Assembly: GCF_000007925.1 (NCBI RefSeq)
Contig: NC_005042.1
Span: 496,001-560,000 of the forward strand
DNA: 64,000 bases
Source: Prochlorococcus marinus subsp. marinus str. CCMP1375
Lineage (GTDB): Bacteria > Cyanobacteriota > Cyanobacteriia > PCC-6307 > Cyanobiaceae
Direction: 5' to 3'
The notes under the pieces are model-generated. The model was given only the letters and a program-made list of their open reading frames with translations, ran no database searches and had not been told where the DNA came from. A program made the position numbers and the translations under genes. Of this stretch, positions 27,130 to 60,785 are shown piece after piece. Position 1 is the stretch's first letter. Every line of letters starts with the position of its first letter.

Positions 27130-27714
27130 TTAATTTAGATTTAAAGCTTTAAGAAGATATGGGGACATTGCACGAGCAGCTTTCCCGCGACTTCCAAGTC
27201 TTGTCAATTGTTCTTGACTAAGTTGTCCATAAGTACAATTTGCTTCTCTTACCCAAAAGATGGATTCAAATTCGCCTTCAGGATATGCAGGCTTTTTTAA
27301 AATTTCACCCCAGCAAATTCCTTCTGAATCATGAATATGATTCCCTTGAGGATCACATAAAACCATTACACTGCAGAATCTGGCGCTGCGATAGGGGTTG
27401 TTTTTAAGCTCGCCGAGTAATTTCTTAAGCTTCTCTTCGTTATTGATAGCAAAACGAGCAGAGTAGATCCCAGGAGCACCATTAAGTGCGTCAACCTCAA
27501 GACCTGAATCATCTGCAATTGCCCAAGTGTTAGTCAATTTTGCAGTTGTTTGAGCTTTAAGCAAAGCATTTTCAAGATAACTGGAGCCCGTTTCTTCTAT
27601 GGAAAGACCTTCAGGCTGCCTTTTAACTCCAATTGGAAGAGGTCCTAGCATTGATTCAATCTCTGAGACCTTTTTAGGATTTCCACTAGCAATGGTAAGT
27701 AGTGGTGCTGTCAA
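27130..27714 (-). CDS. rdgB: dITP/XTP pyrophosphatase (Ham1/RdgB)
   Basis: Removes non-canonical purine triphosphates (ITP, XTP) to keep them out of DNA and RNA. 194 aa. Family motifs: LTIASGNPKKVSEIESML at the start, AIADDSGLEVDALNGAPGIYSAR, and LGSRGKAARAMSPYL near the end (usual SHRGKA reads SRGKA). Starts at TTG 27714. It separates csoS1D from csoS1, an arrangement also found in other Prochlorococcus. Confidence 0.95.
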   Translation of the reverse strand: MTAPLLTIASGNPKKVSEIESMLGPLPIGVKRQPEGLSIEETGSSYLENALLKAQTTAKLTNTWAIADDSGLEVDALNGAPGIYSARFAINNEEKLKKLLGELKNNPYRSARFCSVMVLCDPQGNHIHDSEGICWGEILKKPAYPEGEFESIFWVREANCTYGQLSQEQLTRLGSRGKAARAMSPYLLKALNLN

Positions 27715-27807
27715 AATATAAATGAGCCTTTTTTTAAGGCCTTATAAAATTGATTTATAGAGTAACTTATCGATAATCAATAAATTTTTATAGAGACAGG
27801 ATTAGGT

Positions 27808-27962
27808 TGAACATTCCATCCCTTGGCAATGCCATGGGTACCTGTCCCGGGAGGAAGCTAACCAATAAGCAGCTCACAAACAATTGATTGTTCTCAGCTG
27901 CTGACGTAAATCAGGACAGCCTCTTATATCAGTAGTGCCAAGGGTGATAAGCACAGCTTATC
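27808..27962 (+). ncRNA. Candidate structured RNA upstream of csoS1
   Basis: The 359-bp space between rdgB and csoS1 holds no gene but shows nested complementary segments. CCCTTGGCA (27820-27828) pairs exactly with TGCCAAGGG (27936-27944). CTGTCC (27842-27847) pairs with GGACAG (27914-27919). AGCAGCT (27868-27874) pairs with AGCTGCT (27896-27902), capped by AACAAT/ATTGTT. A further hairpin GATAAGC-aca-GCTTATC is at 27946-27962. The long rod with internal loops resembles 6S-type RNAs, but I cannot assign a family. The strand is inferred from the cso direction. Alternatively it is a structured leader of csoS1. Confidence 0.4.
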
Positions 27963-28040
27963 AGCGAGAGTAAATAAGGTGATAGTGTTTTTGATGAATT
28001 CCCCTTGACTTAATAGTATCTCAGCCGTCATTGTCCTTGA

Positions 28041-28054
28041 TGAACATTCCATCC
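28041..28054. repeat. Second copy of a 14-bp direct repeat (first at 27808-27821)
   Basis: TGAACATTCCATCC occurs at 27808-27821, at the 5' edge of the candidate RNA, and again at 28041-28054, 19 bp before the csoS1 start. Both copies are in the same orientation, 233 bp apart. They may be binding sites for one regulator or shared transcript starts. Confidence 0.5.
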
Positions 28055-28073
28055 TTTATTTTTCGCAAGGCAT

Positions 28074-28385
28074 ATGGCTAACGAAACTATGGGCATAGCA
28101 CTCGGCATGATCGAGACACGCGGCCTTGTTCCAGCTATTGAAGCTGCTGACGCAATGACCAAGGCTGCTGAAGTGCGCCTTATAGGTCGTGAATTTGTTG
28201 GTGGCGGTTATGTAACAGTTCTAGTTCGTGGAGAAACTGGTGCAGTTAATGCTGCAGTTCGTGCAGGCGCTGACGCCTGTGAGCGTGTAGGAGACGGACT
28301 TGTTGCTGCTCACATCATTGCTCGTCCTCATAGAGAAGTTGAGCCTGCATTGGGTAACGGCAACTTCCTTGGTCAAAAGGACTGA
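28074..28385 (+). CDS. csoS1: Major carboxysome shell hexamer protein CsoS1
   Basis: 103-aa single-BMC protein that builds the facets of the alpha-carboxysome shell. The BMC domain covers nearly the whole chain (ALGMIETRGLVPAIEAADAM, REFVGGGYVTVLVRGETGAV, GDGLVAAHIIARPH). It is the first gene of the cso operon. A 6-bp hairpin GCTTGA/TCAAGC follows its stop. Its BMC core is close to that of csoS1E, 6.8 kb downstream. Confidence 0.97.
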   Translation: MANETMGIALGMIETRGLVPAIEAADAMTKAAEVRLIGREFVGGGYVTVLVRGETGAVNAAVRAGADACERVGDGLVAAHIIARPHREVEPALGNGNFLGQKD

Positions 28386-60479: not shown

Positions 60480-60650
60480 AAAGGGTTTTAAAGAGGTTTT
60501 AAGGAGTTCATTCTTCTTTAACAAGAAGGCCTCTCAAGTTTAATGGTCGTAAAAACTGACTGCTTGTTTGCAGTATGTAGATCAGTAGGATTTTTGATTT
60601 GTAAAGCATTGAATAAAAAAAAACCGCCTTATTAGGCGGTTTTTTTTAGC
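60480..60650 (+). ncRNA. Candidate small RNA ending at a strong terminator
   Basis: The 417-bp gap between rpsU and the next gene has no ORF. On the plus strand it shows AGAGG (60492-60496) pairing with CCTCT (60530-60534) around an inner TTCTT/AAGAA hairpin, then ACTGC-ttgttt-GCAGT (60559-60574), then the terminator at 60615-60648. No coding gene uses that terminator on the plus strand, so a small RNA is plausible. A promoter is not obvious. Confidence 0.35.
60615..60648. terminator. Strong bidirectional intrinsic terminator
   Basis: CCGCCT-tatt-AGGCGG (60624-60639) flanked by nine A on the left and eight or more T on the right, so it works in either direction. On the minus strand it would end the transcript of the 84-aa membrane protein gene and insulate rpsU. 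On the plus strand it may end a small RNA. Confidence 0.9.
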
Positions 60651-60785
60651 TTCCTAAAAAGTGTTTCCTAGTTTCCACTTTTAGAGAAGCTTTCTCCTCA
60701 CATCTCAAATGATAATGACTAATTTTAATTTTGCAAGTTCCTCGTCAATGATTTTTTGGATTTGCTCTGTATAAGCCTTTTTTAC

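Follow-up and report, generated by a model that had tools for sequence, protein, structure and literature searches.

A conserved structured RNA complementary to the predicted 5' end of the carboxysome-Rubisco mRNA: a candidate small RNA of Prochlorococcus and its relatives

In a genome made up of a single contig of 1,751,080 bases, the genes rdgB (minus strand) and csoS1 (plus strand) diverge across a 359-bp spacer. This spacer lies in the window, that is, the whole stretch of 64,000 nucleotides that was analysed, whose coordinates are used throughout. The genes and elements at the locus are:

27130..27714, minus strand: rdgB, from the open reading frame list; downstream neighbour of the RNA module, on the same strand
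27791..27849, minus strand: structured RNA module kept in relatives, a candidate sRNA; it spans 59 nt in this genome, with its 5' end predicted at about 27849
27793..27800, minus strand: 3' arm of closing stem P1, RNA CCUGUCUC-3'; covariation
27809..27817, minus strand: loop GGAAUGUUC, motif copy 1; invariant or nearly so in the 42-row and 66-row alignments
27820..27838, minus strand: hairpin P3, RNA CCCAUGGCAUUGCCAAGGG; six of seven pairs changed on both sides, 86% of cells paired
27841..27848, minus strand: 5' arm of P1, RNA 5'-GGGACAGG; eight of eight P1 pairs changed on both sides, 98% of cells paired
27855..27860, minus strand: predicted sRNA -10, TAGCTT; an overlapping TTAGCT is possible too
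27878..27883, minus strand: predicted sRNA -35, TTGTTT, with a 17-nt spacer
27947..27961, no strand: palindrome ATAAG-N5-CTTAT, putative RbcR-like operator
28005..28010, plus strand: predicted csoS1 -35, TTGACT; CTTGAC conserved in an alignment of 30 spacers
28029..28034, plus strand: predicted csoS1 -10, CATTGT, 7 nt before motif copy 2; position kept in most rows (by eye)
28042..28054, plus strand: motif copy 2, GAACATTCCATCC, predicted first nucleotides of the csoS1 mRNA; direct repeat of 27809-27821
28074..28385, plus strand: csoS1, from the open reading frame list; heads the carboxysome-Rubisco operon, proposed target
from 28454, plus strand: rbcL, next after csoS1

Relatives were drawn from a family that we take to be Cyanobiaceae, in which 78 of 201 genomes were matched by a DNA search with positions 27800-28073 as query; a search of phages gave no match to the spacer. 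Sixty-two instances of the module were extracted, and 42 of them were aligned on the minus strand to build a covariance model, leaving out L085 and L103, in which P1 is poor, and 18 others. The covariance model matched 68 of 81 loci at E < 1e-3. The module has 57 conserved positions, comprising the closing stem P1 (arms GAGACAGG/CCTGTCCC, 27793-27800/27841-27848), the hairpin P3 and the loop, whose mean unpaired probability was 0.57-0.74 in the predicted folds of ten members. In the present genome, model R1 matched 27791..27849 with 75 bits (E 7.4e-19), the only other match having an E value of 4.9.

Covariation was scored over 66 loci, 63 of them distinct, with L085 and L103 dropped as weaker. 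Double changes were found in 14 of the 15 pairs, and 92.4% of cells were paired across these 15 pairs, in an alignment that had been fitted to the structure, which favours the covariation score. Double-change cells numbered 67, versus 14.6 after shuffling, and none of 500 shuffles, which ignore phylogeny, reached any of the five measures used; sliding the partner lowered pairing to 34-56% of cells. P1 was already plain in the unfitted sequences, for example as GGGGCAGG/CCTGCCCC, GAAACGGT/ACCGTTTC and AAGCGTGC/GCACGCTT. A conserved RNA structure, one of the marks by which an sRNA is recognised, was thus found here by covariation.

The strand of this RNA can be read from its wobble pairs, as G.U pairs of an RNA made from one strand appear as A.C on the other. 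In the minus reading, P1 had 30 G.U versus 3 A.C cells, and P3 had 45 versus 13, with seven of these 13 in its weakest pair; these are counts of cells rather than of independent events, and 16 of the 30 G.U cells in P1 fell at one pair, the rest being spread over six more. The excess of G.U over A.C in P1 therefore indicates an RNA on the minus strand. On that strand, 60 of 63 distinct loci have a TAnnnT whose end lies 4-8 nt ahead of the first model position, against a mean of 9.6 and a maximum of 18 in shuffled controls (300 rounds, mononucleotide, phylogeny ignored). The fuller pattern TTGnnn, 16-19 nt, T[AT]nnnT was present in 43 of the 63, where shuffling, again mononucleotide and blind to phylogeny, gave a mean of 2.0 and a maximum of 7. 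These promoter-like boxes lie directly upstream of the module, so that its predicted 5' end is the start of P1. The module appears to have a promoter of its own, a further mark of an sRNA.

At the other end of the spacer, the csoS1 start repeats part of the module. Read on the minus strand, the core of the module is GGAATGTTC, and its reverse complement, GAACATTCC, is met again 7 nt past the csoS1 -10; the predicted mRNA therefore begins GAACAUUCCAYCC. The loop of the module is exactly complementary to GAACAUUCC, with which this mRNA is predicted to start (28042). Pairing is predicted over about +1 to +13 of the csoS1 mRNA, ending 19 nt before the start codon in this genome. With its own leader, the module gave a mean duplex energy of -38.4 kcal/mol (-28.9 to -50.7, n = 62), versus -21.3 (sd 4.8, best -44.9, n = 62) with shuffled leaders, in a calculation that ignores internal folding. 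Judged from sequence and predicted folds, the module would thus present an accessible stretch complementary to an mRNA encoded elsewhere, as an sRNA should.

Upstream of the csoS1 promoter lies a palindrome that the initial annotation had described as a hairpin following the nested repeats. The inverted repeat is present, but it is best read as a putative operator in DNA, of the RbcR-like, LysR type, because its layout and its position at about -90 resemble those of RbcR sites. Passages of PMC13249358 give the RbcR site as ATTA(G/A)-N5-(C/T)TAAT, activating near -90; ATAAG/CTTAT has the same layout and differs by one base per arm. In a search of 64 rows that reached up to 130 bp from copy 2 or 200 bp from copy 1, the palindrome was found in all 64 loci, 56 times exactly and eight times with one mismatch. 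Its centre precedes GAACATTCC at the predicted csoS1 start by 88 bp in 60 rows and by 87 bp in four, and it stays with csoS1 also in the four rows in which the module is 1.6-2.5 kb away. As a terminal hairpin it pairs in 88% of cells.

Across the family, the module was found at E <= 0.01 in 119 of 201 genomes (76 of 130 good ones), the best match being weak (E 0.001-0.01) in four of the 119. It is present as a single copy in all but two of them, G001 and G107. On contig C17 of G001 (L051), the csoS1 locus occurs twice, inverted and about 35 kb apart, which may be either a real duplication or an assembly artefact. In G152, which we take to be MED4, the module lies at about 518,430-518,483. In a class-wide draw, 13 of 145 genomes were matched; 12 of these belong to the family, and the thirteenth match was weak (E 0.0026).

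The two copies of the motif vary together. Copies 1 and 2 were compared in 64 rows, including L085 and L103, and dealt at random 5000 times, ignoring phylogeny. At position 11 the copies agreed in 70% of rows versus 44% when shuffled, and at position 12 in 89% versus 67%, neither level being reached in 5000 rounds. Agreement was in weaker excess at position 14 (44 of 5000) and positions 15-16 (94 of 5000), and positions 10 and 13 showed no excess (885 and 778 of 5000).

A perfect copy 2 also goes with the presence of the module. Of 71 distinct sequences that have the module, 70 show an intact 9-mer core in copy 2, versus 14 of 42 distinct module-less ones, a comparison uncorrected for phylogeny in which absence means no model match and the search filters lose weak matches. 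The sample included 36 distinct stretches among 40 newly fetched and 64 distinct loci among 68 older module-bearing ones. Since a third of module-less sequences (14 of 42) keep a perfect GAACATTCC, the motif has another role or can linger without one. Among genera free of matches, it was kept in g9 (3 of 3) and g51 (1 of 2), and the other ten perfect module-less copies belong to genera with some module-bearing members (g5, g18, g29, g34, g45). Drift was seen in the examined members of the match-free genera g24, g35, g37, g32, g44, g54 and g25; drifted module-less loci include L084, L094, L097, L099, L100, L107 and some of L127-L154. Of 28 distinct sequences with a drifted csoS1 copy, 27 keep GAAC after the -10, a hint that these four bases have a role of their own in initiation. 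In the 12 module-less genomes searched, no second copy that would match the drifted csoS1 sites became apparent: the drifted g24 site had a further exact copy in one of five g24 genomes, the g32 site had no exact copy in the g32 genome, and counts of the drifted site in six g35 genomes were like those of the backwards control. Compensatory switching of sRNA and target was therefore not found in these 12 genomes.

The position of the module next to rdgB raises another explanation, in which the structured RNA belongs to the rdgB mRNA as its 5' leader, acting in cis or also pairing with the csoS1 mRNA, rather than being a free sRNA. In all 63 distinct loci, also where csoS1 is distant, rdgB follows the module on its strand, with a start, as estimated by tblastn, 50-182 nt away, and a terminator-like site was seen downstream of P1 and before rdgB in only eight of the 63, so that the RNA could run into rdgB. 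Here, an A+T-rich imperfect inverted repeat at 27746-27788, between the module and rdgB, is possibly part of termination. A leader of rdgB, however, would leave unexplained both the exact complement to csoS1 and the linked retention of the two sites. In 41 of 79 distinct upstream regions the motif CA[ACG]AAT lies no more than 60 nt from rdgB, 23 of the 41 at -28 to -32 (counts made with no chance control), a hint that in many strains rdgB is served by a promoter of its own, and the sequence between P1 and rdgB is largely dissimilar among 22 loci (by eye). We therefore regard the leader as unlikely.

If instead GAACATTCC were a DNA site, with a transcription factor bridging both copies and the module a by-product, such a site could also make use of the spacing of the copies. 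The copies run in the same direction and lie 230-246 bp apart in 60 of 64 rows (59 at 230-238, one at 246), and copy 2 keeps its distance of 7 nt from the -10 in most rows (by eye). Both copies are nevertheless kept in four rows with 1.6-2.5 kb between them, and covariation with one-strand G.U pairs and a promoter ending at P1 point to RNA. The 14-mer GAACATTCCAYCCC is also nearly confined to these two places: of 61 genomes, 31 carry it, at 46 sites in all, of which 45 fall at the module or the csoS1 start and only one elsewhere (G042:C4:48302); sites were assigned by coordinates, or by module distance alone in G047 and for one of two in G009. The same 14-mer read backwards, as a control, gave no match. 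A bridged DNA site is accordingly quite improbable. A second GAACATTCC regulon was considered and rejected: the genome holds one further exact GAACATTCCAYCC, antisense inside a coding region (by eye) that we take to be bioF, and this third occurrence looks like chance. Wide spacing between module and csoS1 was noted in L087 (1113-2936) and L088 (442-3094), and similarly in L101, L102, L092 and L096. By their open reading frame lists, L087 and L088 each have two genes between the rdgB-side module and csoS1, presumably sbtA and sbtB (a bicarbonate transporter and a PII-like regulator).

The initial annotation had drawn a different RNA from this spacer, a plus-strand rod of nested inverted repeats likened to 6S RNA or to a csoS1 leader. 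All of its arms are present in the sequence:

27820-27828 with 27936-27944: 9-bp stem, exact complement
27842-27847 with 27914-27919: first 6-bp stem, exact complement
27868-27874 with 27896-27902: 7-bp stem, exact complement
27879-27884 with 27887-27892: second 6-bp stem, exact complement
27945-27952 with 27956-27963: terminal hairpin, 8 bp with a 3-nt loop

Over 27808-27962 the plus strand does take up the rod of the initial annotation (-47.9 kcal/mol, z = -2.62), and the minus strand reaches -50.2 kcal/mol (z = -2.23), with three of 200 shuffles folding as well in either case. Because both strands fold better than most shuffles, energy decides neither the strand nor the rod. Conservation was followed in 30 aligned spacers and then in 60; in the 60 relatives the 9-, 6-, 7- and 6-bp stems paired in 59, 59, 36 and 63% of cells in the plus reading and in 66, 69, 43 and 58% in the minus reading, for a structure derived from one of the aligned sequences, which favours its pairing score. 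P1, absent from the initial annotation, paired in 90% (plus) and 95% (minus) of cells in the same 60 spacers. Three of the four stems exceeded slid controls (59 versus 32-48%, 59 versus 25-37% and 63 versus 29-46%), so that some signal is left rather than pure noise; two rod arms overlap conserved elements (P3 and the minus-strand -35), and the arm 27820-27828 is one side of the local hairpin 27820-27838. The refuting condition set by the initial annotation, stems that vary in relatives with no compensation, thus speaks against the rod and spares the P1/P3 module.

Rfam gave three matches in the window, of which none is 6S or falls inside the spacer, and with the cut-off opened to E 10 the spacer gave one irrelevant match (E 4.4). 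6S RNA was rejected on this ground and because the long rod is poorly conserved. Far from the spacer, Rfam placed a Cyano-1 RNA (RF01701) at 60643-60707 on the minus strand (52.8 bits, gathering 41). A csoS1 mRNA leader was rejected too: the asymmetry of G.U and A.C places the conserved RNA on the opposite strand, and the module stays by rdgB where csoS1 is 1.6-2.5 kb off. A plus-strand rod or leader, for all its folding energy and the three stems above their controls, is hardly credible given stems paired at 36-63% versus 88-90% for the palindrome and P1, the Rfam result and the strand test. The spacer probably does hold an RNA, as had been proposed; on this evidence it differs in strand, fold, extent and kinship.

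The best reading, to which we give a probability of about 0.7, is that across the family the module serves as an sRNA that acts by base pairing with the csoS1-rbcLS mRNA. From the sequence come its structure, strand, promoter-like elements, exact complementarity, and linked retention and loss, and from these we infer transcription, pairing in the cell and its outcome. In the proposed mechanism, transcription would proceed leftward, on the minus strand, from a promoter in the rdgB-csoS1 spacer, starting at P1 (about 27849). P1 would close a junction with hairpin P3, exposing the loop GGAAUGUUCAAC. This loop is exactly complementary to the nucleotides with which the csoS1-rbcLS mRNA would begin, at a divergent start that lies about 190 bp off and would be controlled by an RbcR-type regulator. 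The sRNA would then diffuse to the csoS1 mRNA, where loop pairing would nucleate a duplex that spreads into the GGG strand of P3, reaches at least 13 bp and covers the very 5' end of the mRNA. The site lies at the predicted +1 and stops well short of the start codon, for which reason protection of the 5' end, with a stabilising or positive effect, seems slightly likelier than repression; the sign is a guess, to which we would give even odds for stabilising and somewhat less than even for repressing. The same position suggests shielding of the 5' end from degradation over direct occlusion of the ribosome site.

Small RNAs encoded beside a target and pairing with it through a short conserved stretch are known from IstR-1/tisB and OrzO/zorO, whose targets are toxin mRNAs. 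The module resembles these in the location of its gene and in its short pairing, and differs in that its proposed target is the carboxysome-Rubisco operon. FasX of Streptococcus pairs at the very 5' end of the ska mRNA, with a measured effect on stability; the likeness lies in the extreme 5'-end pairing, whereas the RNAs are unrelated and an effect of the module on stability is only proposed. An antisense RNA on a Rubisco transcript is known in RblR of Synechocystis PCC 6803, described in parts of PMC5306279 as 113 nt, completely complementary to rbcL and positive in effect. In contrast to RblR, the module is encoded outside its target; its fold covaries, and it would pair over about 13 nt with a site at the 5' end of csoS1.

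Among picocyanobacterial sRNAs, Yfr1/Yfr10 and Yfr2 differ from the module in their loci and in their motif, given as ACUCCUCACAC in sections of PMC2518516. A pull-down with Yfr10 enriched csoS1 and csoS2 mRNA in MED4, as stated in an excerpt of PMC6778093, and csoS1 may therefore be under several RNAs. Yfr103, another structured picocyanobacterial ncRNA, was considered for its abundance and upstream palindrome; excerpts of PMC5069720 give it as 290-328 nt, with seven paralogs in CC9605 and a homolog reported in SS120. On these figures identity was rejected, the module having 57 positions and a single copy in 117 of 119 genomes. The same region appears as cluster 87 of Axmann 2005, which the relevant table of PMC1242208 places upstream of the rbcLS cluster (2 sequences from 2 of 4 strains, 336 nt, Z -4.24/-3.64); the table entry notes a conserved promoter and the mark NT, which we take to mean not tested, and gives no structure or target. 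None of the 14 MED4 ncRNAs in Table 1 of PMC2518516 lies at the module site, the older Yfr1-7 standing outside that table. In the literature on csoS1, carboxysome and Rubisco small RNAs, antisense RNAs and Yfr RNAs, covered mostly through open-access papers, the module RNA was not found reported; its transcript may already be in published data under another name. Sections of PMC2518516 state that most Prochlorococcus strains lack Hfq and that Prochlorococcus has few regulatory proteins, and a passage of PMC6778093 calls the mode of action of sRNAs in picocyanobacteria enigmatic.

The target site is kept with the RNA gene and usually decays on its loss; the RNA and the mRNA start would therefore have evolved as a unit. 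We think it reasonably probable that a dedicated single-target RNA, kept across much of the family, caps about the first 13 nucleotides of the carboxysome-Rubisco mRNA, in many hosts without Hfq. A large part of the carbon fixed in the ocean is fixed by Prochlorococcus and marine Synechococcus, and the host group comprises the most abundant photosynthetic microbes of the ocean. If the proposed sRNA is real, the synthesis of Rubisco and carboxysomes would be open to direct control by a conserved RNA aimed at the start of the csoS1-rbcLS mRNA, and this group would have an unusually clear sRNA-target pair.
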